Source: Oscillibacter sp. (lineage in GTDB: Bacteria > Bacillota > Clostridia > Oscillospirales > Oscillospiraceae). From it: 39,944 bases of DNA. The stretch's first letter is position 1, and every line of letters starts with the position of its first letter. Below the pieces are notes generated by a model. The model saw nothing but the letters and a program-made list of their open reading frames with translations, searched no databases and had not been told where the DNA came from. A program made the position numbers and the translations under genes. This document shows positions 21,990 to 39,746 of the stretch, piece by piece. The DNA lies in the NCBI GenBank assembly GCA_022797935.1, contig JAAWLO010000013.1, positions 1 to 39,944 on the forward strand, read 5' to 3'.

Positions 21990-22065
21990 TTTAAGACACC
22001 TCCAAAAGAATAAGGGGCAAAATTTGTGCAATGCTCACGCCGCTCCCCTGATAATCCTGGCTCTT

Positions 22066-22093: not shown

Positions 22094-22094
22094 G

Positions 22095-22110: not shown

Positions 22111-22226
22111 GCTGTTCTCAAATGAAACATTTTTTCAGAGTCCCGGCGGCAAAATCAAACACCGATGCAAAGCGCCCGGCTGTTTTTGTAGAATTTAAAT
22201 AAAGGGTTTGCGGCGGAATTCCCCCG

Positions 22227-22247
22227 CCCAGGCGGCCGCCGCCTGGG
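22227..22247 (-). terminator. GC-only hairpin after the FAH gene
   Basis: A 21-bp near-perfect palindrome (CCCAGGCGG arm, NotI-like centre) 45 bp after the FAH stop. It has no T run, so it may be a weak terminator, an RNA processing site or a DNA cruciform separating FAH from the internal promoter. Confidence 0.45.
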
Positions 22248-22292
22248 GGCCGGGAAGGGGGAAGAAAGCCCTCTGGTTTCCGGACGCGGGAG

Positions 22293-23174
22293 TCACGATG
22301 CCCCGTCCCGCACCGTGTTTTCCAGCACGCCAATGCCCTCGATTTCACAGGTGACCACATCCCCGTCCTTCAAAAAAACCGGCGGGTTCCGTCCAAAGCC
22401 AATGCCCGTGGGGCTGCCGGTGGCAAAGATGGCGCCTGCCGGAAGCGTCATGCCCTGGGACAGCTGGCTGATGATTTCCGTTATGCCGAAGAGCATGTCC
22501 TGGGTATTGCCGTCCTGCCGGAGTTCCCCGTTGACGGACAGCCGGAGGCGGAGCCGGGGAGGGTACGGAATCTCATCCGCCGTCACAATCCAGGGGCCCA
22601 GGGGGCAGGCGCCGTCCAGACTTTTCATGAAATAGTTCTGCTTGTGACGGCTCAGCTCCCGGGCGGTGACATCATTCAGAATCGTGTAGCCGAACACGCA
22701 GGATTCCACCTCCTCCGGCGGCACCCGGAAGGTGTCCCGGCCCAGGATGACCGCCAATTCGCACTCGTAGTCCAGAGTTGAGATGAAGCCCACATGAGAG
22801 GGGATGTCTTCCCCGTCTCCCCGGCAGCGATCCACCGCCTTTCCGAAGAAGATGGGCCAGGTCCGCTGGGTCCGCTGTTCCCCCAGGGCGTCCGCCATCT
22901 CGTTTGCGTGGTCCTTGTAGTTCAGGCCCATGCAGACCACGTCCCGCACCGGGTGGGGGACCGGCGCCAGCAGGCGGACCGCCTCCAGCGGGAGCCGGAC
23001 CGGAGCTCTCTCTGCGGCGGCGATGATTTCTTCCAGAATTTTCCGGTCTGTCCGGCGAATCAGGCCGTTCATGGTTCCGTAGTCATAGCCTATGGCGTCC
23101 AGCAGCACCACGCCGCTGTCCGTCAGCACCGCCACATGTTCGGTCTCCTGGTATAAGCAGGTCAAAAGCTTCAT
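22293..23174 (-). CDS. Fumarylacetoacetate hydrolase (FAH) family protein
   Basis: The 293-aa protein has a short N-terminal domain and a FAH fold from about residue 75 (VCMGLNYKDHANEM). Metal ligands include DYECELAVILGR (about 137-148); GYTILNDVTARELS and FATGSPTGIGFG motifs follow. Members hydrolyse or decarboxylate beta-diketo acids, or hydrate/isomerise 2-oxo acids, in aromatic and sugar-acid breakdown. Next to DHDPS-like lyases it may split or hydrate a diketo-deoxy acid. No strong ribosome site is seen (GTGGTG only). It is the first gene downstream of the divergent promoter shared with the PrpR-N regulator, and a gap of 303 bp separates it from the next gene. Confidence 0.88.
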   Translation of the reverse strand: MKLLTCLYQETEHVAVLTDSGVVLLDAIGYDYGTMNGLIRRTDRKILEEIIAAAERAPVRLPLEAVRLLAPVPHPVRDVVCMGLNYKDHANEMADALGEQRTQRTWPIFFGKAVDRCRGDGEDIPSHVGFISTLDYECELAVILGRDTFRVPPEEVESCVFGYTILNDVTARELSRHKQNYFMKSLDGACPLGPWIVTADEIPYPPRLRLRLSVNGELRQDGNTQDMLFGITEIISQLSQGMTLPAGAIFATGSPTGIGFGRNPPVFLKDGDVVTCEIEGIGVLENTVRDGAS

Positions 23175-23220
23175 TTCTGCACACCACTTTCTCGCGGTTG
23201 TCCGCGGAATTATCGATTAT

Positions 23221-23234
23221 GGAAAAATTTTTCC
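23221..23234. promoter_or_regulatory. Perfect palindrome, candidate operator
   Basis: GGAAAAATTTTTCC is a perfect 14-bp palindrome just downstream of the predicted FAH transcription start and 46 bp before its ATG. It could be an operator for the divergent regulator. Confidence 0.45.
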
Positions 23235-23242
23235 GGTTTCCA

Positions 23243-23276
23243 TGCCTATGCTAAGGCAATCCGCCCAATACCGCAA
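23243..23276 (-). promoter_or_regulatory. FAH promoter with dyad around the -10 box
   Basis: Minus-strand -35 TTGCGG (23271-23276), 17-bp spacer and -10 TAGCAT (23248-23253). The -10 is exactly enclosed by the inverted repeat TGCCT/AGGCA (23243-23258), which would place a bound protein on the -10 element. Confidence 0.45.
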
Positions 23277-23330
23277 GAGCCAGGGAGAGGGAAAGCTGTG
23301 CAAAACGAAACACTTTTCTTGGAAGGCTAC

Positions 23331-23359
23331 TTGTTTTTTGAACAGTCCCCTGCTATAAT
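23331..23359 (+). promoter_or_regulatory. Promoter of the PrpR-N regulator gene
   Basis: -35 TTGTTT (23331-23336), 17-bp spacer and perfect -10 TATAAT (23354-23359), about 80 bp before the regulator ATG. It is a sigma-A-type promoter; no sigma-54 GG-N10-GC element was found in this gap. Confidence 0.7.
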
Positions 23360-23439
23360 CAGGGCAGCTTTTTCGGACATTCCGCGCCCCGGCGGCAGGT
23401 GTTTCCGGGTCTGCGGACCTTGCGGAAGGGAGGTACCTT

Positions 23440-25215
23440 ATGAAAAAACTGCGGCTTTTGTGCATTCCCCCCTATGAGGGCATGTACAATCTGATGACCA
23501 ATCTGGCGGCCCAGCGCAGCGACGTGGAGTTCATCATCCACATGGGGAACCTGGAGGACGGGCTGAAGGCGGTTTTGGAAAACCGGCACAACAACATAGA
23601 CGCCGTCATCTCCCGGGGCGGCACGGCGGAGACCATCCGCGCCCACTGCGGCGATATCCCCGCCTGCGACATCATCCCTTCTGTGTACGACGTTCTGAGG
23701 ACCATCCGTCTGGCCCAGGGCATGGCGGAACGCTTTGCCGTGGTGGGCTTTCCCAGCATCACCAAGCCTGCGGACATGCTCCGGGACATCATGCAGTACG
23801 ATTTTCAGGTGCGGACCATCCGCAGCGGCGCGGAGTGTGAAGCCTGTATCCGCCGCCTGCGGGACGAGGGCGTCCAGGCGGTTGTGGGCGACACGATCTC
23901 CGCCGCCTGTGCCCGGCAGCTGGGGATGCACGGGCTTTTGATTGTCTCCGGCATTGAGAGCGTGGAGTCCGCCATCAACAGCGCGGTGAAGATGCACCAC
24001 TACTACGATTCCATCAGTAAGCGGGCGGCCCTCTTCTCCGACCTGCTGGCGGCGGAGGACCGGGAGCTTCTGATTTACACCGCCAAGGGCCATCCGTTTT
24101 TCTCCAATGTCACAGACCTGCCGGAGGATATCTCCCGTCTGCTGGCGCAGAAGGTTTCCAATGTCATTGCCCAGGATTCGCTGAAAATCATGCGGCGGGC
24201 GGAAAACTGCGTGCTTTCCATCAATGGGCAGCTGCTCCAGTCCGGCGGGGAGGATTACTGTGTCTACACCATTACCCGCCTGTCCAATACCGCCGTGTTT
24301 GACCGGTATCTGATTCAATATCTCCCGCCGGAAACAGACTTGCCGGACTCCAAGCCCATGGAATACTATCTGGGGGTCAGCGAGGAGATTACCGCCGTCC
24401 GCGCCGCCTGCGACCGCTATGCCCTCATGAGCGCGCCGGTGCTGCTGACGGGGGCCCGGGGAACCGGCAAGGACCGCTTTGCCCATTACATCTATGCCCA
24501 CAGCAAGCGCAAGCACAGCTCCTTCGTCAGTATTGACGCTGGTCTTTTGGACGATAAGGGCTGGAATTTCCTCCTGAAAAATGACCGTTCTCCCCTGACT
24601 GATTCCGGACTCACCATCTTCTTCCAGAGAATGCAGTCCGCCGCCCCCGCCCAGCAGCAGCAGTTTATCATCTACCTGAAAAACTCCCGGGTATTTCAGG
24701 CAAACCGGCTGATTTTTTCCTATACGGAGGAGGAGGGGGCCATTCCCCAGGATGACCTGTATCTCTACCTGACCGAGACCGTGGGCTGCCTGTGCCTGCA
24801 CACGCCCAGTCTGGCCCAGAGGCGGGAGGACATCCCCACGCTGGTGAGCCTGTATATCAACGCGGTCAACGTGGAGCACAGCACCCGGGTGGTGGGGCTG
24901 ACCCATGACGCCATGCTGACGCTGCAGAACCATACCTGGACGCGAAATGTGGACCAGCTCTTTCAGTTTGTGCAGGAACTGGTGATCGGGGCCAAGACCT
25001 CCTACATCTCCGGGGAGCAGGTGCAGTCGCTGCTGGCCAGAGAGATGCGGACCGCTCCGGCTCTTACGGAGACCGGCATTAACCTGGACAGGACCCTGGA
25101 TGAAATTGTGCAGGACATTGTGCTTCGGGTCTATGAGGCCGAGAACCTGAATCAGACCCGCACCGCCAAGCATCTGGGCATCAGCCGGAGCACGCTGTGG
25201 CGGATGCTGAAATGA
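23440..25215 (+). CDS. PrpR-N domain regulator with degenerate AAA+ domain and Fis-type HTH
   Basis: The 591-aa protein has a PrpR-type N-terminal sensor domain (about 5-190: MKKLRLLCIPPYEGMYNL, VISRGGTAETIR), a linker PAS-like region (about 200-300) and an AAA+ region (about 325-520). A Fis-type helix-turn-helix sits at the extreme C-terminus (TRTAKHLGISRSTLWRMLK). The P-loop reads TGARGTGKDRF, without the usual S/T after the lysine; no GAFTGA loop is seen and the Walker B region (LTIFFQRMQS) lacks DE. It therefore looks unable to activate sigma-54 in the normal way. Divergent from the FAH/DHDPS operon, it probably controls that operon in response to an acid metabolite. GGGAGG precedes the start. 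Confidence 0.85.
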   Translation: MKKLRLLCIPPYEGMYNLMTNLAAQRSDVEFIIHMGNLEDGLKAVLENRHNNIDAVISRGGTAETIRAHCGDIPACDIIPSVYDVLRTIRLAQGMAERFAVVGFPSITKPADMLRDIMQYDFQVRTIRSGAECEACIRRLRDEGVQAVVGDTISAACARQLGMHGLLIVSGIESVESAINSAVKMHHYYDSISKRAALFSDLLAAEDRELLIYTAKGHPFFSNVTDLPEDISRLLAQKVSNVIAQDSLKIMRRAENCVLSINGQLLQSGGEDYCVYTITRLSNTAVFDRYLIQYLPPETDLPDSKPMEYYLGVSEEITAVRAACDRYALMSAPVLLTGARGTGKDRFAHYIYAHSKRKHSSFVSIDAGLLDDKGWNFLLKNDRSPLTDSGLTIFFQRMQSAAPAQQQQFIIYLKNSRVFQANRLIFSYTEEEGAIPQDDLYLYLTETVGCLCLHTPSLAQRREDIPTLVSLYINAVNVEHSTRVVGLTHDAMLTLQNHTWTRNVDQLFQFVQELVIGAKTSYISGEQVQSLLAREMRTAPALTETGINLDRTLDEIVQDIVLRVYEAENLNQTRTAKHLGISRSTLWRMLK

Positions 25216-27538: not shown

Positions 27539-28564
27539 TCAAGAAATCTGAATCTGTATTTTCAGGAAGTTTTCAGGCGCGCGGTCCCAATCAGCGAAGG
27601 CCTTCGGCGCATCGTCAATGGGATAGACGGCGGAAATCAGCCGCTTGAAATCCGACCGGTGTGTACGGATATTTTCCCGCACAGTCTTAAACTCATCGCT
27701 CAGGGCGTTTCGCGCCCCTGCAATGGTAAGCTCCTTTTTCACAATCAGAGTCGCGTTTAGTTCAACATTTTGTTTGCTGTAGCCTACATATCCCACACGC
27801 CCGGCAAAATGAACCGCGTGAATGGCCTGCGTCATGGTCTCAGGCAGGCCGATTGCCTCCACAGCGGCCGGTACGCCGGTCCCATGGGTAATCCGGGCAA
27901 TTTCTTCCTCCAGATTCTGCGTCTGCGGATTCACGCAGGCAGCCGCGCCCATAGCCTTTGCCGTTTCAAACTTTCCGCTGGCGATATCGACGGCAATCAC
28001 GGAGGCGCCGCGGAGGCTGGCGGCAGAGATGACGCCGGAACCAATGAGGCCGCATCCAAATACCAAGACAAATTCCCCTTTTTGAATATGCACCCGCGCG
28101 GCTGCGTGGGCCCCCACGGAAAGCGGCTCAATCAAGGCAATTTCCCCATAAGAAAGCCCTTCGCATTTTATGACGTTTCCATAGGGTGCTGCAATGTATT
28201 CGCACAAGGCCCCCGCCTGCAGCTGCACGCCCAGCGTGCGGCTGTTTTCGCAGCAGTTGATGCGGCCAGTGGAGCAGGGATAGCAATGGCCGCAATGGAA
28301 ATAGGGCTTCACGGTAACAGGGTCCCCCGGTGAGAACAGGCCCTCCGGAACGGCGCTTCCGCAGGACACGACCTCTCCGCCCAGCTCATGGCCGGGAACC
28401 AGGGGGAAGTTTGTCAGGGCGGCAGCGCCCCGGTAGCTCTGCAGGTCGGTGCCGCACAGACCCACCCTGTGGACCCGAATCAACACATCCTGCTCCCCCG
28501 CCTGCGGCTCCGGCAGGTCCATGACGGAAACCTTGCCGGGTCCTTCCATATAAACCGCTTTCAT
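27539..28564 (-). CDS. Zinc-dependent alcohol dehydrogenase, L-galactonate 5-dehydrogenase-like
   Basis: The 341-aa medium-chain dehydrogenase has catalytic zinc ligands in GLCGTD (C near 38) and PGHE (H near 60), the structural zinc cluster CGHCYPCSTGRINCC (about 90-104), and the Rossmann motif VFGCGLIGSG (about 167-176). Features recalled from E. coli LgoD (L-galactonate to D-tagaturonate) are shared: GR-NCCE, ALIEPLSVGAHA and KKELTIAGARNAL. Sorbitol- or threonine-dehydrogenase activity is the alternative. CAGGAGG precedes the ATG at 28564. It is divergent from the ABC transporter operon, whose last genes include tagaturonate epimerase, which supports the LgoD idea. Confidence 0.87.
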   Translation of the reverse strand: MKAVYMEGPGKVSVMDLPEPQAGEQDVLIRVHRVGLCGTDLQSYRGAAALTNFPLVPGHELGGEVVSCGSAVPEGLFSPGDPVTVKPYFHCGHCYPCSTGRINCCENSRTLGVQLQAGALCEYIAAPYGNVIKCEGLSYGEIALIEPLSVGAHAAARVHIQKGEFVLVFGCGLIGSGVISAASLRGASVIAVDIASGKFETAKAMGAAACVNPQTQNLEEEIARITHGTGVPAAVEAIGLPETMTQAIHAVHFAGRVGYVGYSKQNVELNATLIVKKELTIAGARNALSDEFKTVRENIRTHRSDFKRLISAVYPIDDAPKAFADWDRAPENFLKIQIQIS

Positions 28565-28898
28565 GATATTTCCTCCTGATGGTCTGTATTTTGACTGGTG
28601 GCAGCGCCTGAACCGAGGGTGGCCCATGCCGTTTATGCTTATCATAACGGGCCGCCGGTCAATTGATAGCGGGATATTTGGCAAAAACCGGGGAATTTTC
28701 TGCTGATGAAAGAAAGAGCTAAAAATCAGGAAATAATTTTGGAAAAAACGAAAAATCATCAGCATTCACTCAAAATCTACTGCGTCCCTTTCGCTTTTTG
28801 GATATTTTTAAGGGGAACCAAACAAGCTGCTGCGGTCTATGGAAGCAAATTGTACAGCAGACGGTACTGTTTGGAATTTTGAAATTGGAGGAAGAAGC
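28565..28898. promoter_or_regulatory. Divergent intergenic control region
   Basis: A 334-bp AT-rich region between the zinc dehydrogenase and the ABC operon. A 9-bp inverted repeat TGCTGATGA/TCATCAGCA lies at 28701-28709 and 28756-28764, 46 bp apart. An imperfect dyad CCGTT...AACGG with TATGAT on the minus strand lies near 28627-28650. No promoter pair with good boxes was found for the plus strand. Two-component-regulator binding in this region is plausible. Confidence 0.4.
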
Positions 28899-30047
28899 AT
28901 GAAACAGTTTTTGGCACTGCTGCTGGCTTGCGGAGGAAACACGGAAACCGGTTCCCCTGACTCCGGCGGTACCGCCCAAGGGAATACGGCAGAACCGAAG
29001 AGCTCCGGAATCAAACTGGGTATCTCCAACGGCTATTACGGCAATACCTGGCGGGCCCAATATGTGGAAGCCATGAAGAGCTTCTGCGAGGGCCTGGTTC
29101 AGGAGGGCGCCTTGGAGAGCTATACGCTGCTGAACAGTACCGGTGATGTGACGGAGGAGCTGAACAACATCAACAGCCTCATCAGCGAGGGCGTGGACAT
29201 CCTGCTGATTTCCCCCAACTCTCCCACCTCTATGGGAAGTGTGATTCAGACCGCCCAGGAACAGGGCATCTTTGTGGTTATTTTCAATGATGCGGCGGCG
29301 TATGACGGCACCTACTGCATCTACAATGACCAGAGCCAGTTCTGGGAGGTGCAGGCCAAGTGGTTTGCGGAGAAGATGGGCGGCAAAGGCAATCTGGTTT
29401 GGGTAACCGGTTCTTCCGGCAACAGTACCTCCGCCTGCCGCCAAAACGCCGCCAAGGCCGTTCTGGACAACTATCCGGACATTCAGATTCTGGCCTCGGC
29501 TCCGGGCGAATGGTCTGAAACGACGGCGCAGAGCGTGGTGTCCACTTTCCTGTCCACCTATGGCGATCAGATTGACGCGGTTATGGCGGAGGATGTAATG
29601 GCAAACGGCATTGTCCGGGCCTATGAGAATGCCGGTATGGATATCAAACGGATTTCCGGTGACTACCAGAAGAGCTTCCTGGATTGGAACGTGGAGCATC
29701 CCGAGGTGGAGACCATTGGTTCCCCGTCGGTCCCCGCTATTGGAATCAGCTCCATCAAGATTGCCCTGCGTCTGTACAACGGCGATGAACTGGCAGACGG
29801 TGTGCTCCAGCCCAATCAGGAGGACGCCAGTCTCATCAACTCCATCATTCTGCCCATGCCCTATGTGGTGGTGAGCAATCCGGATGATGTGACCGGTCCC
29901 TGGACCGAGGGGTATGACGACACCCGTTTTATCAGCACGGCCGAAGCGGCTGAGCTGTGCGCGGGACAGCCGGATTCTTATATGCTGGACATGCCCCACT
30001 CGGATGAACAGCTGGATGCGCTGTTTCGATATAGTCAACGCAGTTGA
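28899..30047 (+). CDS. Sugar ABC transporter substrate-binding lipoprotein (ribose-type)
   Basis: The 382-aa periplasmic-binding-protein family 4 type protein starts its first lobe at IKLGISNGYYGNTWRAQ (about 36-52), with the hinge and second-lobe motifs PNSPTSMGSVI and AVMAEDVMANGIVRAYENAG. It should deliver a sugar or sugar-acid ligand to the two permeases downstream. GGAGG precedes the ATG at 28899. The signal is odd: the lipobox cysteine is C11 (MKQFLALLLAC), leaving a hydrophobic core of only seven residues, while the TAXI lipoprotein of this window has C20. A small in-frame deletion in the signal peptide may have occurred. Confidence 0.88.
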   Translation: MKQFLALLLACGGNTETGSPDSGGTAQGNTAEPKSSGIKLGISNGYYGNTWRAQYVEAMKSFCEGLVQEGALESYTLLNSTGDVTEELNNINSLISEGVDILLISPNSPTSMGSVIQTAQEQGIFVVIFNDAAAYDGTYCIYNDQSQFWEVQAKWFAEKMGGKGNLVWVTGSSGNSTSACRQNAAKAVLDNYPDIQILASAPGEWSETTAQSVVSTFLSTYGDQIDAVMAEDVMANGIVRAYENAGMDIKRISGDYQKSFLDWNVEHPEVETIGSPSVPAIGISSIKIALRLYNGDELADGVLQPNQEDASLINSIILPMPYVVVSNPDDVTGPWTEGYDDTRFISTAEAAELCAGQPDSYMLDMPHSDEQLDALFRYSQRS

Positions 30048-30086
30048 AAAGGAGTCCCCATTCGCAAGGACGGAACACAAGCCCCT

Positions 30087-30112
30087 GTGCCCTATCCCGT
30101 TGGGTAGGGCAC
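30087..30112 (+). other. Hairpin between SBP and ATPase genes
   Basis: GTGCCCTA pairs perfectly with TAGGGCAC, extended by CCC/GGG with one bulge, in the 90-bp gap after the SBP stop. A weak T stretch follows, so it is likely an attenuator or stabiliser favouring SBP expression. Confidence 0.65.
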
Positions 30113-30137
30113 ATTTCAAAACACAAGGGTGGTCGAC

Positions 30138-31745
30138 ATGAAACTGATATGCAAAGACGTCAGCAAACAATTCGGTTCCAATCCGGCGCTGAGGGGGGTG
30201 AACCTCTCCGTGGACGGCGGCGAAATTCGGGCCCTTTTGGGGGGCAACGGTTCCGGCAAAAGCACACTTTCCAAAATTTTGGGCGGTGCGCTGCACATTA
30301 CCTCCGGTTCTATGGAATTAAACGGAGAACCCTCTGCGCCGTCCTCGCCGGTTGACGCAAAACGGCGGGGAGTGGTGTTTACCTCCCAGGAGCTGAGCCT
30401 GTTTGAAAATCTGACCGTCGAAGAAAACATTGCGCTTTGCAGCCATTCTGTGGAACGGCTGTGGAAAAATGAAACAGCGAAAACAGCAGAAAAAGTGCGG
30501 GCGCTGCTGCGGAAATATGGAATAGAGGGCCTGGCGGACAAGGCTGTCCGGAGTCTTCCGGCAAATGAACAGTACCTTGTAGAATTCATGAAAGCCGTTT
30601 ATCAAAAGGCGGATGTCCTCATCATCGACGAAATTACCTCCGCCCTCTATCAGGAGGATACCGAGATTGTCCGGCGCGTCATGCAGGAATATAAGGCACA
30701 GGGCAAAATCATTCTGTTTATTTCGCACCGCATGCCGGAGATTATGAAGCTGTGCGACACGGTGACGGTGCTGCGGAATGGCGCCGTGATTTCCACCCAT
30801 TCCACCCGGGATGTGACGGAAAGCCTGCTGGTCTCCCAGATGACCGGATTGGATGTGGACTGCGGTTCCGCCCCGCGCCGGCCGGAGAAGCGCACGGCTG
30901 CGAAAACCCTGCTGGCAGTCCGGCAGATGCCGCTTCCGCAGTTCGGCACCGCGATAGACCTGGAGGTCAAGGAGGGGGAGATCATTGGCATTGCCGGTCT
31001 TCAGGGCCATGGGCAGTCCGACCTTGTCCGGCAGCTCTTCGGCCTGAATCCCGCCGTCACGCCCGTTGTAGAGCTGCAGGGACGCACGGTGAGTCTGTCC
31101 GCTCCCATGAAAGCTATCCAGAATCGGATTGCCTTTATCTCTGGAGACCGGACTTTGGAAGGCGTTTTTGAGGAGCGGTCCATTGAAGAAAATGCAGAGG
31201 TTGTCTCTCGAATGATTCTGGGCAGGAAAGTGGATGCGGCGGCGGTTTTGGATGCGTTTCATGTGAAGTACCAGAACAAAGGGGACCGGGTTACCTCGCT
31301 CAGCGGCGGCAACCAGCAGAAAGTGGTGCTGGCCCGCTGGCTGTCCAACGCGCCGCTGGTGGTGCTGGCGGACGACCCCACAAAGGGGATTGACGTACAG
31401 GCCCGGCGGGACGTTCACAAAACCGTGGTCAAAATTGCGGAAATGGGCTCGGCCGTCCTCATGGTCTCCAGCGATCATGAGGAGCTGGTGAATCTGACAA
31501 GCATGTCGGAGAATTCCCGCATTCTGGTTCTGTATGAGGGACAGATTGTCAAAACGCTTACCGGTGGTGACATTTCCGCGGAAAATATCGCGGGCTTCTG
31601 TGAATCTGGGATAGGAGGGGAACATCTATGGACAAAAACAGACTGCTTCGCTGGCCGGCTCTGCCTTCGCTGGTCATGTGCGTCCTTTTCTTTCTCATCA
31701 ATGTTTTCTGTACCAATGGATTTCTGCAGAAACACGTTCTTTTGA
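30138..31745 (+). CDS. Sugar ABC transporter ATP-binding protein, RbsA/MglA type (overlong C-terminus)
   Basis: The double-NBD ATPase of ribose-type importers is read as 535 aa. NBD1 has Walker A GGNGSGKST (about 35-43) and Walker B LIIDEIT, but its signature is SLPANEQYLV. NBD2 has the usual degenerate P-loop GLQGHGQSD, signature LSGGNQQKV (near 387) and Walker B VLADDPTKGID, where the catalytic glutamate is aspartate. Family similarity ends near ENIAGFC (about residue 490). The frame then runs 40 codons more over the start of the permease gene. A TAG just before the permease in the next frame suggests a lost stop or small indel. The ATG at 30138 follows AAGGGTGG. Confidence 0.85.
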   Translation: MKLICKDVSKQFGSNPALRGVNLSVDGGEIRALLGGNGSGKSTLSKILGGALHITSGSMELNGEPSAPSSPVDAKRRGVVFTSQELSLFENLTVEENIALCSHSVERLWKNETAKTAEKVRALLRKYGIEGLADKAVRSLPANEQYLVEFMKAVYQKADVLIIDEITSALYQEDTEIVRRVMQEYKAQGKIILFISHRMPEIMKLCDTVTVLRNGAVISTHSTRDVTESLLVSQMTGLDVDCGSAPRRPEKRTAAKTLLAVRQMPLPQFGTAIDLEVKEGEIIGIAGLQGHGQSDLVRQLFGLNPAVTPVVELQGRTVSLSAPMKAIQNRIAFISGDRTLEGVFEERSIEENAEVVSRMILGRKVDAAAVLDAFHVKYQNKGDRVTSLSGGNQQKVVLARWLSNAPLVVLADDPTKGIDVQARRDVHKTVVKIAEMGSAVLMVSSDHEELVNLTSMSENSRILVLYEGQIVKTLTGGDISAENIAGFCESGIGGEHLWTKTDCFAGRLCLRWSCASFSFSSMFSVPMDFCRNTFF

Positions 31746-32605
31746 GTTTCCTGTCTTCCAACATTCCGCTGGTCTGCGTGTCTATGGGCTGCGCCTGTGT
31801 AATCATCAGCGGCGGTATGGATATCTCGCTGGGGGCGATTGTCAGCCTGACCAACGTCATTTTCGTGAAGCTCAACGCCGCCGGGGTTCCCCTGGCCTTG
31901 CAGATCACCCTTTGCCTCTGCGCGGCCCTGCTGATGGGGCTCCTCAATGGCGTCATCATTGGTCTTCTGCGCGTTACGCCGCTGCTGGCGACCTATGCCA
32001 CCTCCACCGCCTATGCGGGCATTGCCCTGTGGATGCTGCCGGCGCCTGCCGGAACGGTGATGCGCAGCTTTTGCGGCTGGTACAACAGCTGGCTGGCCGC
32101 TGTGATTCCGGTCCCCCTGCTGTTTGCGGCGCTGATTTTCCTTTTGTGGAGCCTGGTCATGAAAACGCCTATGAAATATTGGATATACAGCACCGGCTGT
32201 CACGGCTATCGGGCTTATGTCTCCGCTGTTCCTGTGGGCAGAACCCAGATCTTTTCGTACATGTTTGCCGGATTTGCGGCCGGTATTGCCAGCTTGGCTA
32301 TCTCCAGCTCCACCCAGGGCGGCGACGCCTCGGTGGGCGCGGCGCTGTCCATGAACGCCATTGCGGCCTGTGTCATTGGCGGTATTGGCCTGGCGGGCGG
32401 AACCGGTTCCATAACCGGCTCTGTGTTCGGCGCGGTTTTCCTGAGCCTGGTGATGTTTATTGTCTCGTCTGCCCACATTGCCTCCATTTACCAAAGTCTC
32501 GTGAAGGGCACGATTCTGCTGCTGGGGGTACTGTTCAGCATTCTGATTGAGACCCGCCTTCAGCGCGAAACAGACCGCCCGAATCTCCGCCGCACAGGGC
32601 CGTGA
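31628..32605 (+). CDS. Sugar ABC transporter permease (RbsC type), first subunit
   Basis: The 325-aa protein has eight to ten hydrophobic helices of the BPD_transp_2 family. It shows the conserved stretches IISGGMDISLGAIVSLTN (about 60-77) and the loop region with GGIGLAGGTGSITGSVFGA (about 256-274). TAGGAGGGG precedes the ATG. It forms the membrane channel with the next gene, which encodes a diverged partner, so the transporter is probably a heterodimer. It overlaps the 3' extension of the ATPase frame by 118 bases. Confidence 0.92.
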   Translation: MDKNRLLRWPALPSLVMCVLFFLINVFCTNGFLQKHVLLSFLSSNIPLVCVSMGCACVIISGGMDISLGAIVSLTNVIFVKLNAAGVPLALQITLCLCAALLMGLLNGVIIGLLRVTPLLATYATSTAYAGIALWMLPAPAGTVMRSFCGWYNSWLAAVIPVPLLFAALIFLLWSLVMKTPMKYWIYSTGCHGYRAYVSAVPVGRTQIFSYMFAGFAAGIASLAISSSTQGGDASVGAALSMNAIAACVIGGIGLAGGTGSITGSVFGAVFLSLVMFIVSSAHIASIYQSLVKGTILLLGVLFSILIETRLQRETDRPNLRRTGP

Positions 32606-32620
32606 AGGGAGGCGTTGCAG

Positions 32621-33604
32621 ATGCGTGAAAAAATCCATACGTCCGGAATCTGGAAATCCTGTCAAAACTCCGGCCTGAAGAGTTATGCGCCTGGACTGGC
32701 GGCCATTTTGCTGCTCATCCTCTTGGGCCAGATTCTGCGGCCCGGGTTTGCCTCCTCCGCCAATATCTCCAGCATTTTGAACCAGGCGTCCGTGCTGGCG
32801 GTTGTCTGCATTGGACAGCTGGTGGTCATAGCCGGTACGGGAGGAATTGACCTTTCCACAGGCGCGTGCGTCTCCATGGGAGCGCTGACCGGCTCTATGT
32901 TCATGGACGGAAATATGGTTCAGCTTCCCCTGGCCATCCTGATTACCCTGCTGCTGGGGGCGGCGGCAGGCTGCCTGAATGGAACCGGCATCCAGCTCTT
33001 CAAAATCCCGGCGTTGGCTATGACGCTCATCATGTCCACCGTGATTGACGGTTTTACAAAGGCCGTTACAAAGGGAAAACCCTCCTTGAATCTGCCGAAG
33101 CTTTACAAGGCTATCATTGGCCAGCCCATAGCGGGCCGGTTCTGCGCCATTATTTTGATTGCCGCTGTATTTGTCGTGCTGTATGAGCTGCTGCTAGGCA
33201 AAACCAGTTTTGGCAAGTCCATCTATGTCATGGGCAGCAACCGCACGGCAGCCGGAATGTGCGGGCTGAACGTCCGGTTTCTGTCCGTTTTCGTATATGT
33301 GATTTCCGGCGCTATGGCCAGTCTGGCCGGTTTGATTCTGGTCGGCTATGTGGGCAGCGCCCAAATGGGCATGGGCGACGCCTACACCATGCTGTCTATT
33401 GCCGCAGTGGTAACCGGCGGCGCAAAGGTTACCGGCGGCAAGGGTTCCCTGCTGGGCGGAGTGATCGGTTCTGTTGTGCTGGTGCTGCTGTCCACGGTGC
33501 TGACGTCTATGGGAATGCCCGAGGGCGCCCGCCAGTTCTTCCAGGGTATGATTCTGTTGGCCGTGCTGATTGCCAACTGCCGTCTGCCCTTCTTCCGGCA
33601 ATAA
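32621..33604 (+). CDS. Sugar ABC transporter permease (RbsC type), second subunit
   Basis: The 327-aa BPD_transp_2 protein has motifs IAGTGGIDLSTGACVSMGAL (about 71-90) and GGAKVTGGKGSLLGG (about 266-280). The ATG at 32621 follows GGGAGG by eight bases and is preferred over a TTG two codons earlier. It starts 15 bp after the first permease. Pairing of two different permeases with one double ATPase is common in autoinducer-2 and some sugar systems. Confidence 0.92.
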   Translation: MREKIHTSGIWKSCQNSGLKSYAPGLAAILLLILLGQILRPGFASSANISSILNQASVLAVVCIGQLVVIAGTGGIDLSTGACVSMGALTGSMFMDGNMVQLPLAILITLLLGAAAGCLNGTGIQLFKIPALAMTLIMSTVIDGFTKAVTKGKPSLNLPKLYKAIIGQPIAGRFCAIILIAAVFVVLYELLLGKTSFGKSIYVMGSNRTAAGMCGLNVRFLSVFVYVISGAMASLAGLILVGYVGSAQMGMGDAYTMLSIAAVVTGGAKVTGGKGSLLGGVIGSVVLVLLSTVLTSMGMPEGARQFFQGMILLAVLIANCRLPFFRQ

Positions 33605-33630
33605 ACGAAATGCAAGCAGGAGGTCATCTT

Positions 33631-34449
33631 ATGAAAGGGCTCAAATTCGCCATTCTCCCGCATGGATATATTGAAAACGATCTGGCCTGGAATGTGGCCA
33701 TGCCCAATCCGGCAACCCGTTCGGCTCCGGACGCCAAGCCGGTTTGGGGGAGGTTCCCGACTTACTCCGTTTTGATCTCCCATCCTTCGGAGGGGCATAT
33801 CTTGTTTGACACCGGCTCTGCGCCGGGAGACGAGGCCGGGCGGCGGCCGGCGTCCATGAACGACCGGTTTCCGCTGTACATCCGGCGGGAAGAATTCCTG
33901 GACCGGCGGCTGGAGGCCTTGGGGCTTTGCGTGGAGGATATTTCTCTGGTTCTGTGCTCGCATATGCACTGGGATCACAGCGGAGGCCTGAGCTTCTTCG
34001 CCTACAGGAGCACGCCGCAGAAGGTCCTGGCGCCCAAAGCGGATTATACATTTGGCCTGACGCACACACTCGCGCCCTATCAAGCGGCGGATGACTGCGT
34101 TTACTTCCGCGAGAATTACCTGTTTGAGAATCTGGATTATACGCTGGTGGAGCAGGACCAGCCCCTGTGTGAGGGGATGGATTTGATTCTGCTGGAGGGC
34201 CACACCCCTGCCGTCATGGGGCTGGTGCTTCATCTGGAAAGCGGGGCTGTAATCTTTCCCTCGGATGCCATTGGCAGCCAGGCCAACTACGACGGCAGGT
34301 GTCCCGGCATCATCTACGACAGTCTTGGGTTCCAAAGGGCGGTTCAAAAGGTGCGCGGCCTCCAGCGGCAGCTGAACGCCAACGTAATATTCCCGCATGA
34401 CGCCGGACAGTTTGCCGGTCTGCGGCAGGCGCCCTATTTTTATGAGTAG
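33631..34449 (+). CDS. Metallo-beta-lactamase fold hydrolase, putative lactonase
   Basis: The 272-aa protein has the zinc motif SHMHWDHSGG (H111, H113, D115, H116), a further histidine in LEGHTPAVMGL (about 189-199), the aspartate in FPSDAIGSQANY and a last histidine in FPHDAGQF. The layout resembles AiiA-type N-acyl-homoserine lactonases. Within an operon with a sugar-type importer, a galactonate-type dehydrogenase nearby and UxaE downstream, opening of an aldonolactone is a better guess than quorum quenching. CAGGAGGTC precedes the ATG. It ends the ABC operon; the next gene has its own promoter. Confidence 0.87.
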   Translation: MKGLKFAILPHGYIENDLAWNVAMPNPATRSAPDAKPVWGRFPTYSVLISHPSEGHILFDTGSAPGDEAGRRPASMNDRFPLYIRREEFLDRRLEALGLCVEDISLVLCSHMHWDHSGGLSFFAYRSTPQKVLAPKADYTFGLTHTLAPYQAADDCVYFRENYLFENLDYTLVEQDQPLCEGMDLILLEGHTPAVMGLVLHLESGAVIFPSDAIGSQANYDGRCPGIIYDSLGFQRAVQKVRGLQRQLNANVIFPHDAGQFAGLRQAPYFYE

Positions 34450-34484
34450 GAAGGAATTGGCAATTCGTTTTTCGGAGAGGCTTC

Positions 34485-34513
34485 TTTACACGTTCCGGGG
34501 AATATGGTATATT
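34485..34513 (+). promoter_or_regulatory. Promoter of the two-component system genes
   Basis: -35 TTTACA (34485-34490), 17-bp spacer and -10 TATATT (34508-34513). It lies 36 bp after the lactonase stop and would give a leader of about 170 nt. Confidence 0.65.
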
Positions 34514-34624
34514 ATGTTAGAATCAGCGGTTCAGGAACCCTTTTGCGTATGACGGAATGCTGCGCCCGGAGCGCTGGATTTGCCGTCTGGGGCCTTTCCC
34601 ATTTCATCCAGGCTGAACAATCAA

Positions 34625-34661
34625 AAGCAGCTCTGTCAACGTTCAGCTGGCAGAGCTGCTT
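34625..34661 (+). other. Hairpin in the leader of the histidine kinase gene
   Basis: AAGCAGCTCTG pairs perfectly with CAGAGCTGCTT (11 bp) around a 15-nt loop, 16 bases before the ribosome site. No T run follows; it may shape translation or mRNA stability. Confidence 0.6.
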
Positions 34662-34689
34662 GCCATCTCAACGGGTCAGGAGGCGTGCT

Positions 34690-36438
34690 TTGAAAGTTTT
34701 CTCCCTGAAAAAGAAGCTGATTGTCTGGGTCCTTCTTTGGATCTGTTTCCCCATTACCGTCTTTTCCGCTGTGTTTATCTTTTATGAGAGCAACATTGTG
34801 AAACAGGAAATCCGGCATTACGCGGACAGGCAGATTTCTTCCCTGGCGGCGCAGATGGATTGGTACTTCCGCTCTGTGCAGCACATCTCCAAAAGCTATT
34901 ACAACGACGAGTTTATCAACGGCCTGGTCCATCCCGGACACCCCCGTGACCGGATGTCGTTTCTGGAAGACCAGCTGAATCTGCTGAGCATGAAAAAGGT
35001 GAATAACTACACCCTGGAGGATACCGAGCTGCAAGTGACGGTTATCACCTGGGACGGGAAAATCTACGGCACAAATTTATACCGGAAGACCTTCGATGTA
35101 AAAGAGATGCGGAAAACCCCGTGGTATCAGCAGCTGCTGAAAAATCCGTGGGAGGTCTTGTGGATTCAGGACTGCTTTCTCAGCGATTTGATTTATGATG
35201 AGGAACAGGGGCAGGTGTTCAACATCTGGGTTCTGAAATCCCCCAGTACCTATGAGCCTGTTGGGTTTCTGATTGTGGATTTTCCCCTGGAAGACCTGAC
35301 GGGCCAGTTTGACGGCTATTTTGACAGCCGGGAACTGTTCGCCGTCCAGGACATGTATGATAAGACCATCTTTTGCAGCAATGAGGCCCGCATGCAGGAG
35401 GCAGACGCGGTTCTGCATGGCTGGACCGGCGAACTGGCGGCGGAAAGTCCTCTTACATCCTCCAAATATTATCAGGCCGGCGCGGAGACCCGGCATGGCC
35501 GTTGGTCGATTTCACTGTTTACCACCCAGGGAGCGGCCCTGAACCGCTACGACTCCTTCGTCAGATTTTTCCTTCTGGCCTTTTTCCTCTATGTGGGTCT
35601 TATCCTTGTCCTGCTGCTCCTGATCAGCAATCAGATTGTCCGTCCCATTCAATCCCTCACGGCGACCATACGGATTGCGCAGTCCGGAAACATGGACGCC
35701 CGGGCGGACATCCGCAGCCGGGACGAAATCGGTGAGCTGGCCTCCGCGTACAACAGCCTGCTGGACGAGATTCACCGGCTCATGGATCATATCACCGCGG
35801 AAAACGAGCAGAAACGGCGGGCGGAAATGCAGGCGCTGTCCGCGCAGATCAATCCGCATTTTATCCTGAATACCCTGACCTCCATCCGGGCTTTGATTTA
35901 CCAGGGGCTCAACCGGACTGCGGAAAAAACCGTCCTTACCTTTGCCTTTCTGCTGAAAAATGTACTGTCCTGGGAGCAGGAGATGTGTACCCTGGGGAAG
36001 GAAATGGACTTCGTGGGCAAATGCGTGGAAATTTATCAGATGTCCTTTGAATACCCCATGCGGATCAGCATTGAAATGGACCCCGCGCTGTATGACTGTA
36101 TGGTCATCAAGATGATTACACAGCCCATTGTGGAAAACGCGATTCTGCACGGTTTGAAGCCCAAGGAGGGGGACAAGTCGCTTTCCGTTCGGGTTCTCCG
36201 GGACGACGGCGTCAAAATCCTGATTTACGACAATGGAATCGGCAGCACAAAGCAATTCCTGTTTGACCAGGTGAACATGAAATTTGGCCGGGGAATTGGC
36301 ATGCAGAATGTATACAACCGCATTGTCCTGCATCACGGTTCCCACTATGGCCTGCAGTTTTACAGCCGGCCCGGAGAGGGAACGCTGGTGACCCTGCACC
36401 TGCCTTATATCCGGGAAGAAGGAGAGACGCATGATTGA
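34690..36438 (+). CDS. YesM-type sensor histidine kinase (TTG start)
   Basis: The 582-aa protein has a transmembrane helix (about 9-31), an extracellular sensor region to about 290, a second helix (about 292-317) and a HAMP domain (RPIQSLTATIRIAQSG onward). A His_kinase domain with phospho-acceptor H390 in QINPHFILN and a HATPase domain with VENAILHGLKP and DNGIGS follow. The start is taken as TTG at 34690 because CAGGAGG lies six bases before it; no good ATG exists before the first helix. Eight bases overlap with the response regulator. It likely senses an extracellular sugar or sugar acid and controls the ABC and UxaE genes. Confidence 0.88.
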   Translation: MKVFSLKKKLIVWVLLWICFPITVFSAVFIFYESNIVKQEIRHYADRQISSLAAQMDWYFRSVQHISKSYYNDEFINGLVHPGHPRDRMSFLEDQLNLLSMKKVNNYTLEDTELQVTVITWDGKIYGTNLYRKTFDVKEMRKTPWYQQLLKNPWEVLWIQDCFLSDLIYDEEQGQVFNIWVLKSPSTYEPVGFLIVDFPLEDLTGQFDGYFDSRELFAVQDMYDKTIFCSNEARMQEADAVLHGWTGELAAESPLTSSKYYQAGAETRHGRWSISLFTTQGAALNRYDSFVRFFLLAFFLYVGLILVLLLLISNQIVRPIQSLTATIRIAQSGNMDARADIRSRDEIGELASAYNSLLDEIHRLMDHITAENEQKRRAEMQALSAQINPHFILNTLTSIRALIYQGLNRTAEKTVLTFAFLLKNVLSWEQEMCTLGKEMDFVGKCVEIYQMSFEYPMRISIEMDPALYDCMVIKMITQPIVENAILHGLKPKEGDKSLSVRVLRDDGVKILIYDNGIGSTKQFLFDQVNMKFGRGIGMQNVYNRIVLHHGSHYGLQFYSRPGEGTLVTLHLPYIREEGETHD

Positions 36439-37993
36439 GAAAATCCTGGTGGTTGATGACGATTTCTTGATTCGGAAATGGCTCTGCCTTCTGATTCAGC
36501 AGAGCCGGAAGTGCCATGCGGAAATCCTTCAGGCTGATAACGGTCAGAAGGCGCTGGAGCTCCTGGACAAGGAAACCGTTGACCTGGTCATCACGGATAT
36601 CAAAATGCCGCTGATTGACGGTGTGGACCTGGTCCGTCAGATTCAGAAAATGGAGGTGCCGCCGCAGATTGCCGTTCTCAGCGCATATGACGACTACAGT
36701 TATGTCCGGTCGACCCTGAAGGAGGGGATACTGGATTATCTCCTGAAGGGGGAGATGGAGCTGCATGACATTGACGCCCTGCTGGAGCTGGCGGAGCAGA
36801 AACAGGCGGCCAGGCTTCCGCATCCCGAGGCACAGCCGCCCAAAGGCGCTCACAATTTCACGAAAGTGATTGCCGGGGCGTTCCGCGAATGCCTGGAGAA
36901 CCCCGAACGTGATTTGGAGCTTTTTCTGGAACAGTCCTTTGGGAAAAAGATGGTCTTTCCGGCGGAAAGCCTTGTGTGCTGCCTCAAAAATCCCCAGCGC
37001 TCAGAGGCGGTCCGGTTCCACGTGCTGAGCCGTCTGGCAGACATCTGCGGCGCGCAGAAGCTGGACTGCCTGCTGCTTCCGTATCCGCCGGACCTGCTCT
37101 TTTTTCTGTACCACCGGCAGACGGACTCTGAGGGCCGCCGTTTTTCCGAGCGGCTGCTCCAACAGGCCCGGGAGGCCTTGGAAAAAACGCCGGATGGCTG
37201 CACGCTTACCGGCGTTGACCGCAGCCGTATCCTGGACGCCCGGCAGCTTCGCAAGGTATTTTCCCGGCAGATTGAGGACGCCCTCCGGATCAGCTTTTAT
37301 CAATTGCGTCATCTGCCAGTGACGCAGTCCCCCGAGCAGGAGCTGACATGCCTGGCCGCATGGAAAGAGGAAATCTCCGCGCTGATTCGGAAGAAGCAAT
37401 ACGCCAGCGTACGGAGTTCCTTCCAGGATATGGCCGCCAAATGCCGGGAAACCGCAGTCAGCCCCAAGCTGTTCGTCAACAGCTGCATTGCCATTTGTTA
37501 CCGGTTCTCCGCGTACATACAGTCCTTTACCACCAACGCCCATCTGGCGCTGGTAGAGGACACGGTGTTCCAGCTTCAGCGCACGGAAACCGCCCAGGAA
37601 AGCGAGCGGCAGATGCTGTCTTTGATGGACTATATTTACGACCTCGCAAAGAAGCATCCGCGGTATTCCCAGGCCATTGAAAAAAGCATTGATTATATCG
37701 CCGGGCACTATTCCGAAAAGCTGAGTCTGGACGAGATCAGCAGCTATGTTTATCTGAACAAGAGCTATTTTTCTGAGCTTTTCAAAAAAGAGATGGGAAT
37801 CAATTACAATGACTACATCAACCAGGTCCGAATCCAGCGGGCCTGTGAGCTGATGGCGGAGGGGCGGCACACCCTGTCCGGCATTGCGCAGATGGTCGGA
37901 TTTTCCGATCAGAATTATTTCTCCAAGGTGTTCAAGCGCATTGTTGGAGAGAGTCCCAAGAGCTATCAGAAGGCATTGCGGCACAGCCGTTGA
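36431..37993 (+). CDS. AraC-type response regulator (YesN family)
   Basis: The 520-aa protein has an N-terminal receiver domain (acidic pocket VVDDD, phospho-acceptor D56 in ITDIKMP, LSAYDDY and K in LLKGEM), a long middle region (about 130-410) and a C-terminal AraC double HTH (about 420-518, SELFKKEMGINYNDYINQVR and GFSDQNYFSKVFKR). Length is usual for YesN partners of YesM kinases. It overlaps the kinase gene by eight bases. The cognate targets are probably the divergent region at 28565-28898 and the uxaE upstream region. Confidence 0.92.
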   Translation: MIEKILVVDDDFLIRKWLCLLIQQSRKCHAEILQADNGQKALELLDKETVDLVITDIKMPLIDGVDLVRQIQKMEVPPQIAVLSAYDDYSYVRSTLKEGILDYLLKGEMELHDIDALLELAEQKQAARLPHPEAQPPKGAHNFTKVIAGAFRECLENPERDLELFLEQSFGKKMVFPAESLVCCLKNPQRSEAVRFHVLSRLADICGAQKLDCLLLPYPPDLLFFLYHRQTDSEGRRFSERLLQQAREALEKTPDGCTLTGVDRSRILDARQLRKVFSRQIEDALRISFYQLRHLPVTQSPEQELTCLAAWKEEISALIRKKQYASVRSSFQDMAAKCRETAVSPKLFVNSCIAICYRFSAYIQSFTTNAHLALVEDTVFQLQRTETAQESERQMLSLMDYIYDLAKKHPRYSQAIEKSIDYIAGHYSEKLSLDEISSYVYLNKSYFSELFKKEMGINYNDYINQVRIQRACELMAEGRHTLSGIAQMVGFSDQNYFSKVFKRIVGESPKSYQKALRHSR

Positions 37994-38198
37994 AACACCG
38001 CTGATATGGTCTGCCCACTGCCGGTTCCTTGGGATGCCTCTGAAAAAAAGACGCTTTTTCAAAGAAATTACGGTTTTTAAAATACGAGATAAACAAGGCG
38101 GGAATCTGCCGAAAAAATGACAGGTTTCCACGCGTTCTCTCCATGTATGAAAATCCTTCTGCCGTTAGAATGGATATACAGACAAGGAGGGACTGCGG

Positions 38199-39746
38199 AT
38201 GAACAGAAACCGAATGCTCAATATCTGCCGGAACGCAGGCTATACGCCCAGCGCCGCGTCCTGGCGGGAACGGGACGGCTGTACATACGTCATGGCGCGG
38301 CGCCAGCAGACGCCCGTGCTGCTGGTCTCCGGAAGTGCGCCGGAGATATTTGAGGGAACGCGGGTCTCCGCAGGGGGAGATTCAGTTCTGGCCTGCCGGC
38401 TGAACAAGCAAAACGCCGCCGCACTGCGGGAGTTGTTTCCCTGCACGGCTCCCGCCAGCCTCAGCGGTCATGCGGCCAGTATGGGCTTTGGCGACCGGCT
38501 GGGCCTGGTGACCGGCGCTCACATCAAAGCGCTGGAAGGCTCCGGCGCATTTCCGGTGCTGGCACAGCAGTCGAAACGGGAACTGTCTCTCACCGGCCGG
38601 ACCTGGTGCGATATGTTGGACTGTGTCACCTGGCAGGTATTTGAGGCTGGATATGAAGGCGGTTATGCGGCGGACGGCGACCATCTGAAAACCTTTGAGG
38701 AGGTGCGGGAGGCCATTGACGGCGGCGCAACCATGATTACGCTGGACTGCTCGGAACAGACAAATCCTACCGCAGCCGGACTTTCTTCAGCAGAAGCCGC
38801 GGAACTGTGCGGCCGTAGACTGGATACGGCCCTGACCGCGCAATGGAATGCGGATTATGAGGAGAAGACGGTTTCTCTGGGCGGCGGCTTCGGTATCCGC
38901 TTGGCTCTGGAAATACTTCCGTCCCTGTATTTGGCATACAGCGGCGCATTGGCGTTTGTGGAGCGTATAGACCGGGAGCTTATCCGCAAGAGCGGACGCC
39001 CTGTGGCTCTGGAGATTTCCCTTGATGAAACCGAGACGGAGACCAGCCCGGCCGCACACTATTTTGTGGCCAGTGCGCTGCAGAAGCGGGGGGTAACCAT
39101 CGAAAGCATAGCGCCTCGCTTCTGCGGAGAGTTCCAAAAGGGAATCGACTATATTGGCGACGTAACGCGTTTCCAGGCGGAATTTGCCGTTCATGCGCAG
39201 ATTGCAAGGGCGTTGGGCTATCGGCTCAGCGTACATTCCGGCAGTGATAAATTCTCTGTTTTTCCGTATGTGGGCAGGCTGACGGATTTCCGCTTTCATC
39301 TGAAAACCTCCGGTACCAGCTGGGTGGAAGCGGTGCGGGTGATTGCGGCCTGCAATCCGGAACTGTTTAAACGAATGCTGAAGTTCTCCTGTGAAAAGTT
39401 CCGTGAGGCAAAGGCGCATTACCACGTCTCCGGCCAGGCGGAACGGGTGCCGTCCATGGACCGCATTGCCGCCAAGGATCTGCCGGGTCTACTGGACGGG
39501 GCGGACGCCCGTCAGGTGATACATATTACCTACGGCTATTTACTGCAGGCTGTGGATGAACAAAACAGGCCTCTGTTCCGGGACGAGATCTACGATACAC
39601 TGCGCCGGAACAAGGCGGCGCTGGATGCGGCGATTACAGCCCACAGCCGCCGCCATCTGGAGTGCCTGGGGGTTTTGGACCCGCCGGTTTCCGGTTCGAA
39701 TGGGGCGGATGCCCCGCGTCTTCAGCAAACAAAAAAGCACGATTGA
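38199..39746 (+). CDS. uxaE: Tagaturonate epimerase family protein
   Basis: The 515-aa protein matches the UxaE family, known in Thermotoga to interconvert D-tagaturonate and D-fructuronate. Family-typical stretches are SMGFGDRLGLVTGAHI (about 96-111), YAADGDHLKT (about 155-164), APRFCGEFQKGIDYIGD (about 304-320) and SVHSGSDKFSVFPY (about 344-357). These hold likely metal and catalytic residues (Asp, His, Glu). AAGGAGGG precedes the ATG. No uronate isomerase or mannonate genes lie in the window, so the next steps must be encoded elsewhere. Its place after the two-component genes links it to the ABC cluster. Confidence 0.9.
   Translation: MNRNRMLNICRNAGYTPSAASWRERDGCTYVMARRQQTPVLLVSGSAPEIFEGTRVSAGGDSVLACRLNKQNAAALRELFPCTAPASLSGHAASMGFGDRLGLVTGAHIKALEGSGAFPVLAQQSKRELSLTGRTWCDMLDCVTWQVFEAGYEGGYAADGDHLKTFEEVREAIDGGATMITLDCSEQTNPTAAGLSSAEAAELCGRRLDTALTAQWNADYEEKTVSLGGGFGIRLALEILPSLYLAYSGALAFVERIDRELIRKSGRPVALEISLDETETETSPAAHYFVASALQKRGVTIESIAPRFCGEFQKGIDYIGDVTRFQAEFAVHAQIARALGYRLSVHSGSDKFSVFPYVGRLTDFRFHLKTSGTSWVEAVRVIAACNPELFKRMLKFSCEKFREAKAHYHVSGQAERVPSMDRIAAKDLPGLLDGADARQVIHITYGYLLQAVDEQNRPLFRDEIYDTLRRNKAALDAAITAHSRRHLECLGVLDPPVSGSNGADAPRLQQTKKHD

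Follow-up and report, generated by a model that had tools for sequence, protein, structure and literature searches.

The contig JAAWLO010000013.1 of Oscillibacter sp. (assembly GCA_022797935.1; genome 2.69 Mb, 84% complete), here analyzed over its whole length of 39,944 nucleotides (the window, contig C63 of this genome), carries between 27.5 and 39.7 kb a cluster encoding a zinc-dependent dehydrogenase, a CUT2 importer, a hydrolase of the metallo-beta-lactamase (MBL) fold, a YesM/YesN two-component system and the epimerase UxaE. The cluster is tentatively read, at just short of an even chance, as a set of genes for aldonolactone catabolism, the most likely substrate being L-galactono-1,4-lactone. 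L-galactonolactone is a product of the ascorbate pathway and of algal sugars, and would gain a dedicated uptake route if this reading is true.

In the proposed route the YesM/YesN system would sense the lactone, the CUT2 importer would take it up in neutral form and ring opening by the MBL-fold enzyme would yield L-galactonate. Oxidation at C5 by the zinc dehydrogenase would then give D-tagaturonate, which UxaE would epimerize to D-fructuronate. A UxuB-like reductase and UxuA, encoded on another contig, would turn D-fructuronate into 2-keto-3-deoxygluconate (KDG), which a KDG-kinase-like protein and 2-keto-3-deoxy-6-phosphogluconate (KDPG) aldolase would take onward. As predicted from sequence, the UxaE, UxuA and KDPG aldolase steps are well supported; we infer the substrate of the MBL-fold enzyme, the imported ligand and the regulation. 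The order from lactone through L-galactonate and D-tagaturonate to D-fructuronate, put forward in a first-pass annotation of this DNA, stands, with UxaE assigned by profile, but the full gene set is not conserved. The chemistry of the pathway is already known from other bacteria. What is new, within the open-licence literature, is the MBL fold in the place of the lactonase, its home in CUT2 importer operons and the use of UxaE as the outlet of an L-galactonate-type cluster; no account of an MBL enzyme acting as aldonolactonase within a CUT2 operon, or of this gene combination, was found in that literature.

Organization of the cluster

Scans with Pfam and NCBIfam recovered all parts named in the first-pass annotation where it had placed them:

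27542..28564, minus strand: zinc-dependent medium-chain dehydrogenase/reductase (MDR), proposed L-galactonate 5-dehydrogenase (ADH_N 3.1e-26, ADH_zinc_N 1.8e-25)
28565..28898, no strand: gap between divergent genes, presumably a shared promoter region (334-base gap between the dehydrogenase and binding-protein starts)
28899..30047, plus strand: CUT2 substrate-binding protein (Peripla_BP_4 1.7e-43)
30138..31745, plus strand: CUT2 double ATPase (two ABC_tran stretches in one frame of 538 amino acids)
31628..32605, plus strand: CUT2 permease 1 (BPD_transp_2 3.6e-18)
32615..33604, plus strand: CUT2 permease 2 (BPD_transp_2 3.6e-35)
33631..34449, plus strand: MBL-fold hydrolase, proposed aldonolactonase (Lactamase_B 5.7e-16)
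34504..36438, plus strand: YesM-type sensor kinase (His_kinase, HAMP, HATPase_c; start preferred by the gene caller 34690)
36431..37993, plus strand: YesN-type AraC response regulator (Response_reg, HTH_18)
38199..39746, plus strand: UxaE tagaturonate-fructuronate epimerase (PF16257, 536.6 bits)

The dehydrogenase and binding-protein genes are divergent. Counted from its first methionine the dehydrogenase has 341 amino acids; the 408-residue open reading frame given earlier adds upstream sequence beyond the Pfam domains. The MBL gene most likely is part of the importer operon, since it starts 26 bases after the stop of permease 2. The contig ends 198 bases past the UxaE stop, which leaves the right edge of the cluster open. 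At 31628-31745 the frames of the ATPase and permease 1 overlap by 118 bases; the tail of the ATPase is out of frame with permease 1, which could reflect the loss of a stop codon or an error in the sequence. The binding protein begins (28899-28950) with MKQFLALLLACGGN, a lipoprotein-like signal of unusually short length.

UxaE and the hexuronate genes of the genome

The predicted identity of UxaE as tagaturonate-fructuronate epimerase is well supported: the protein exceeds the PF16257 cut-off of 27.1 bits by far (E 6.6e-161), matches PDB entry 6il9 at 7.8e-121 and keeps blocks that it has in common with UxaE of Cohnella laeviribosi, from which the solved enzyme comes. It is the sole PF16257 match detected in its genome. 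UxuA, UxaC and the UxuB-like gene (product 31% identical to E. coli UxuB) lie together on contig C156, and the genes for KDPG aldolase (239 bits, cut-off 156) and the KDG-kinase-like protein on C112. UxaA gave no match in the genome; with UxuA, the UxuB-like gene and UxaE present, D-tagaturonate would thus leave only via UxaE, if the set found in the genome is complete. A second Mannitol_dh_C match (C121), considered as UxaB, was rejected as being by eye a mannitol-phosphate dehydrogenase.

UxuA and UxaC occur in one of 12 other genomes of the genus, and UxaE matches in 12 of the 250 genomes of a family sample, with none in the three congeners listed there. UxaE links tagaturonate to the UxuB/UxuA branch also in Thermotoga maritima, where the entry is galacturonate (PMC6353982, in the part available), whereas a lactone or aldonate entry is proposed for the window. 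At two further UxaE loci, in Agathobaculum and a family relative, the gene content reads as a Thermotoga-type inositol route (L080 7108-8900, L138 6002-7773).

The dehydrogenase and the gene context of its relatives

The tree and the gene context make it rather likely that the dehydrogenase forms tagaturonate. Residues C37, H59, E60 and C91, C94, C97, C105, which we take to be the zinc ligands, are invariant in a four-row alignment. The protein shares 31% identity with E. coli LgoD and 30% with RspB, and its best PDB rows are alcohol dehydrogenase and threonine dehydrogenases (3.7e-37, 3.8e-37), with sorbitol dehydrogenase at 1.4e-31. In a 43-row tree it is the sister of a 16-row L-galactonate-type clade (support 96/91). 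A second tree of 41 rows, with seven long or distant rows removed and five relatives added, places it as sister of 21 rows (94/90); the trees contain no sorbitol dehydrogenase rows. In the approximately unbiased (AU) test, whose groups were defined after inspection of the tree, which weakens the p values, the dehydrogenase forced together with Tdh gave p 0.029, with the RspB clade p 0.038 and with LgoD alone p 0.098, a pairing that is not rejected but does not give the best tree. The kinship to the L-galactonate type suggested in the first-pass annotation is thus upheld by the sister clade and by relatives near UxaA, UxaB, UxaE and lactonases, and a grouping with threonine or RspB dehydrogenases is disfavored. 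The term 'LgoD-like motifs' used there was too strong, given near-equal identities to LgoD and RspB and the p value of the LgoD pairing.

A four-row profile, in which the rows other than the window's (L019, L183, L184) were picked for context or identity, was searched against 394 genomes of the order. It produced 24 matches spread over 20 genomes; setting aside the window and three weak matches leaves 20 loci. Within the fetched flank, UxaA, UxaB or UxaE is present at 15 of these 20 loci (the UxaA of L230 being a weak match) and absent at L232, L234, L238 (whose contig stops directly behind the gene), L240 and L242. L019, which was found through UxaE, likewise has a dehydrogenase relative with UxaE, and none of ten loci of other MDR dehydrogenases searched in the same way has UxaA, UxaB or UxaE. 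The UxaB label passed the NCBIfam tagaturonate-reductase cut-off in all four proteins scanned (L183, L233, L241, L243); the UxaA of L183 matched a single model, galactarate dehydratase, and stays below its cut-off. From the context of these 20 loci the MDR clade gains the testable annotation L-galactonate dehydrogenase. None of the three clade members scanned (window, L183, L019) reaches an NCBIfam cut-off among the matches listed.

At nine of the 20 loci the gene run of the dehydrogenase includes an Amidohydro_2 protein, either directly beside it (L234, L235, L240, L242, L243) or after UxaB and/or UxaA (L236, L237, L239, L241; L236 by tblastn only). These proteins are called lactonases from family and context only, because the best solved match of the L235 protein is 4i6k at 1.9e-05, with no near solved relative, and neither of two scanned reaches an NCBIfam cut-off. 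Gene order at L235 is CUT2-like permease, Amidohydro_2, dehydrogenase, UxaB; L233 has YesM-YesN plus UxaB-TRAP-dehydrogenase-UxaE. The loci L235-L237, L239, L241 and L243 have in common with the window a putative lactonase, an L-galactonate-type dehydrogenase and a tagaturonate sink, but they use Amidohydro_2 together with UxaB and/or UxaA where the window uses MBL and UxaE.

Eight of the 20 loci (L236-L243) hold a Glu_dehyd_C-like sugar dehydrogenase, seven of them together with a lactonase. At the seven loci other than L243 the protein is 62-71% identical to the L243 copy, and five scanned score 19-29 bits, under the Pfam cut-off of 34.9. Glycoside hydrolase genes are present at some of these loci, GH29 at one and GH2 at two. 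L243 (4774-12729), L240 and L242 combine dehydrogenase, Amidohydro_2 and sugar dehydrogenase with GH29 (L243) or GH2, looking like L-galactose utilization loci; L243 would in effect be an L-galactose route. TRAP transporters occur at ten of the 20 loci and never together with the lactonase; this split was dropped as an independent correlation, being a single change on the tree.

L-gulonate oxidation yields fructuronate and L-galactonate oxidation yields tagaturonate. In genome G128 an operon of an RspB-type dehydrogenase with UxuA/UxuB is adjacent to one of an L-galactonate-type dehydrogenase with UxaB/UxaA, a pair that matches this chemistry. The formation of D-tagaturonate from L-galactonate is also given in PMC12632266, in the part available. 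In a neighboring dehydrogenase clade (L185, L186, L187, L188, L189, L244) the accompanying genes, labelled by eye, vary among LarA-like, IlvD-like, SDR and GntT-like; these loci may form a separate aldonate island. Genes were called with a codon table trained on the window; the low-GC loci L257, L239 and L243 were re-read by open frames, L259 was not.

The MBL-fold hydrolase

That the MBL-fold enzyme acts on an aldonolactone is judged from sequence and surroundings to have an even chance. The nearest solved proteins in a PDB sequence search are 6cgy (1.6e-39) and GcL (1.7e-36), and the metal-ligand set HxHxDH, H, D, H is invariant in the three MBL copies of the genome. The best profile is AhlS, with 148.4 bits against a cut-off of 475 (relatives 81-163 bits). 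The protein shares with the lactonases GcL, AaL and AhlS (PDB 6cgy, 6n9q; PMC11423328, in the part available) the fold, as far as sequence tells, and the dinuclear metal-ligand residues; it differs in a Gly at the position of Tyr223 and in its place in a sugar importer operon. At this position (GcL numbering, offset of one, read from Asp122) Thr, Thr and Ser are found in C53b, G411 and G560, and Tyr in C53a, G786 and G866. According to the same source, again in part, Tyr223 is kept in all MBL-like lactonases except one known example, and neither Tyr223 nor Asp122 is strictly required.

The genome's three copies were combined into a profile, which hit 3 genomes out of 394 in the order (E up to 1e-50) and 4 out of 391 in the class (1e-45), the own genome being in both samples; in total there are eight close matches in 6 genomes. 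The six best-scoring proteins (window, two on C53, G411, G560, G786) are all encoded inside CUT2 importer operons, in agreement with the first-pass placement of the enzyme beside a sugar importer. No CUT2 importer operon was seen at the two weakest close matches, G866 and G761 (the latter poorly gene-called), and five distant proteins (28-37% identity; L131-L133, L193, L194) had no CUT2 permease or binding-protein match nearby, L131 having an ATPase match only.

Locus L252 of G560 shows the same importer-hydrolase-sensor module as the window, with the importer-MBL genes opposite a second binding-protein gene and a divergent YesM-YesN pair. The dehydrogenase-UxaE locus L233 belongs to the same genome; the two modules are separate there and joined in the window. 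Elsewhere the MBL genes are surrounded by an FGGY kinase and aldolase (C53, L251) or by an FGGY kinase and 2-hydroxyacid dehydrogenase (L257), and at L252 no enzyme was recognized. On contig C53 (8000-27900, locus L130, 4585-14694) one CUT2 importer is bracketed by two paralogues of the window's MBL protein (48% and 42% identity). Next to it are an FGGY-type kinase, a class II aldolase, an MDR dehydrogenase and, divergently oriented, a DeoR-like regulator; G411 carries a related operon (L251).

A broader proposal, which we put forward with somewhat more doubt than confidence, is that the MBL subfamily profiling as AhlS is the cytosolic ring opener of CUT2 sugar-lactone importers, replacing the amidohydrolase lactonases in L-galactonate catabolism, its members in the sister operons that carry an FGGY kinase and a class II aldolase serving other aldonate routes. 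If this is true, a group of proteins that profile scans place with quorum-quenching lactonases would have to be moved to sugar-lactone catabolism.

The importer

The importer was assigned to CUT2 from its Peripla_BP_4, double ATPase and BPD_transp_2 matches in Pfam. The ATPase best matches AraG in NCBIfam (336 bits, under the cut-off of 689), and the best PDB sequence match of the binding protein is 4pe6 (1.2e-28); its PDB matches give no usable ligand hint. CUT2 importers usually carry sugars, and a lactone is a possible ligand here, with the balance tilting somewhat to the other side.

Comparison with known systems

The genes BVU_0219/0220/0222 of Phocaeicola (Bacteroides) vulgatus reportedly encode an L-galactose pathway in which the lactonase is an amidohydrolase. 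Common to it and the proposed route are the lactone, L-galactonate, D-tagaturonate and the hexuronate enzymes that follow; the window differs by the MBL fold, CUT2 importer, UxaE and YesM/YesN, and has no linked L-galactose dehydrogenase. In E. coli L-galactonate is imported as the acid by another carrier and tagaturonate is drained via UxaB/UxaA, with no lactonase known to take part. The pathway of E. coli LgoD/LgoR is described in PMC12632266, in the part available, where BVU_0219 and BVU_0222 are also named; here too a zinc MDR dehydrogenase feeds D-tagaturonate into the hexuronate network, that of the window being 31% identical. In the same part of this source, the lgu cluster of Luteolibacter LG18 combines an L-galactonate dehydrogenase with tagaturonate reductase and altronate dehydratase and drains through LguC/LguB; nowhere does that text use the word lactonase.

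Contrary evidence and alternative readings

Several observations weigh against the proposed route. Conserved co-occurrence of the five gene families, the lack of which the first-pass annotation named as a ground for refutation, was not found: the five-part set is present in no other locus examined via UxaE, the dehydrogenase or MBL, and only halves recur. Among the best 80 of 435 confirmed UxaE relatives (identity 40-48%; flanks full in 47, below 10 kb in 10) not one locus has an MBL homologue. No gene for a source of the lactone or of L-galactose is linked to the cluster. The branch of the window dehydrogenase is long, its identity to the sister clade does not go beyond 38-39%, and its profile ranking is IolM (176 bits), Tdh (174) and RspB-type PRK10083 (160), all far below cut-off; with such low identities and sub-cut-off profiles, pairwise and profile comparison decide nothing on this enzyme. 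MDR dehydrogenases of other groups also lie near UxaE, at L059, L080 and L138 (fetched through UxaE), and the Fisher p of 0.0002 for TRAP against lactonase is no evidence of repeated coupling, because it reflects one change on the tree. Loss of Tyr223 is no marker of the MBL group, since two of the six importer-linked proteins, C53a and G786, keep it, and the differing neighbors of the MBL relatives imply that their substrates probably differ. The UxuB-like protein scores below both the fructuronate reductase (141/603 bits) and arabinitol dehydrogenase (145/600) cut-offs, and the missing UxaA is weak evidence because the genome is only 84% complete.

The alternative that survives best, though unlikely, is that the importer carries L-galactose or an L-galactoside, from which an unlinked sugar 1-dehydrogenase would make the lactone inside the cell, with opening by MBL and the remaining steps unchanged. 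This would be the P. vulgatus L-galactose pathway with other parts. The usual role of CUT2 importers in sugar transport, the end of the contig just past UxaE, and the sugar dehydrogenases and GH29 and GH2 genes at loci of the dehydrogenase relatives are consistent with it, whereas no sugar 1-dehydrogenase was recognized in the window cluster or beside the L252 MBL gene, the own genome not having been searched for one.

Quite unlikely is a route for another aldonate (L-gulonate, L-gluconate or other), in which the dehydrogenase would form D-fructuronate or another keto-aldonate and UxaE would balance tagaturonate and fructuronate. The near-equal identities to LgoD and RspB would fit, as would the wider clade loci with LarA-like, IlvD-like and SDR genes, where no tagaturonate gene was found, and the Luteolibacter enzyme LguD, which is nearly equal on L-gluconate and L-galactonate (1.2-fold in kcat/Km; PMC12632266, in the part available). 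Against it stand the rejected grouping with the RspB clade (a group set after the tree) and the consideration that a fructuronate product would make UxaE needless provided that the UxuB-like gene encodes a fructuronate reductase, UxaA being undetected.

We also regard it as improbable that the genes form no joint pathway, UxaE serving D-galacturonate via the UxaC of C156, MBL acting as a lactonase in signal quenching or detoxification, and the dehydrogenase working elsewhere. UxaE stands with UxaC at 24 of 89 loci and with an L-galactonate-type dehydrogenase at two (one of them, L233, added by hand), UxaC is present in the genome, AhlS is the best MBL profile, and the L252 importer-MBL-YesMN genes occur without dehydrogenase and UxaE. 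The contiguous divergent layout across 12 kb speaks for a common function, as do the recurrence of the dehydrogenase-UxaE pairing at L019 and L233, the AhlS cut-off missed by far and the lost Tyr223.

A variant of the Thermotoga-type inositol route, with an IolM-like dehydrogenase, MBL in place of the ring-opening hydrolase IolN and UxaE taking tagaturonate, is very improbable. In its favor, IolM is the best NCBIfam profile of the dehydrogenase (7e-52), and the UxaE loci L138 and L080 hold IolN (503, 509 bits; cut-off 245), IolO-like proteins (222, 228; cut-off 300) and three MDR dehydrogenases, to which BLAST adds an ATPase and a permease that are CUT2-like. Against it, the dehydrogenase reaches 176.3 bits against an IolM cut-off of 450, the UxaA/UxaB-linked L183 (190) and UxaE-linked L019 (198) score no lower, no IolN- or IolO-like match was found among ten proteins scanned, and the inositol loci have no MBL match at 1e-12.

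Other features of the window

A further sugar-acid cluster at 12213-25212 differs in its gene families from that at 27.5-39.7 kb. It comprises a DHDPS-family gene, a TRAP transporter with NMT1-like binding protein, PdxA, Fe-ADH, an SBD_N/NBD_C kinase-like gene, FAA hydrolase and a PrpR_N regulator, and by eye two more DHDPS look-alikes without a Pfam row at 1e-10. The adjacent minus-strand open reading frames at 8297-8824 and 8875-9342 appear by eye to be tandem paralogues.

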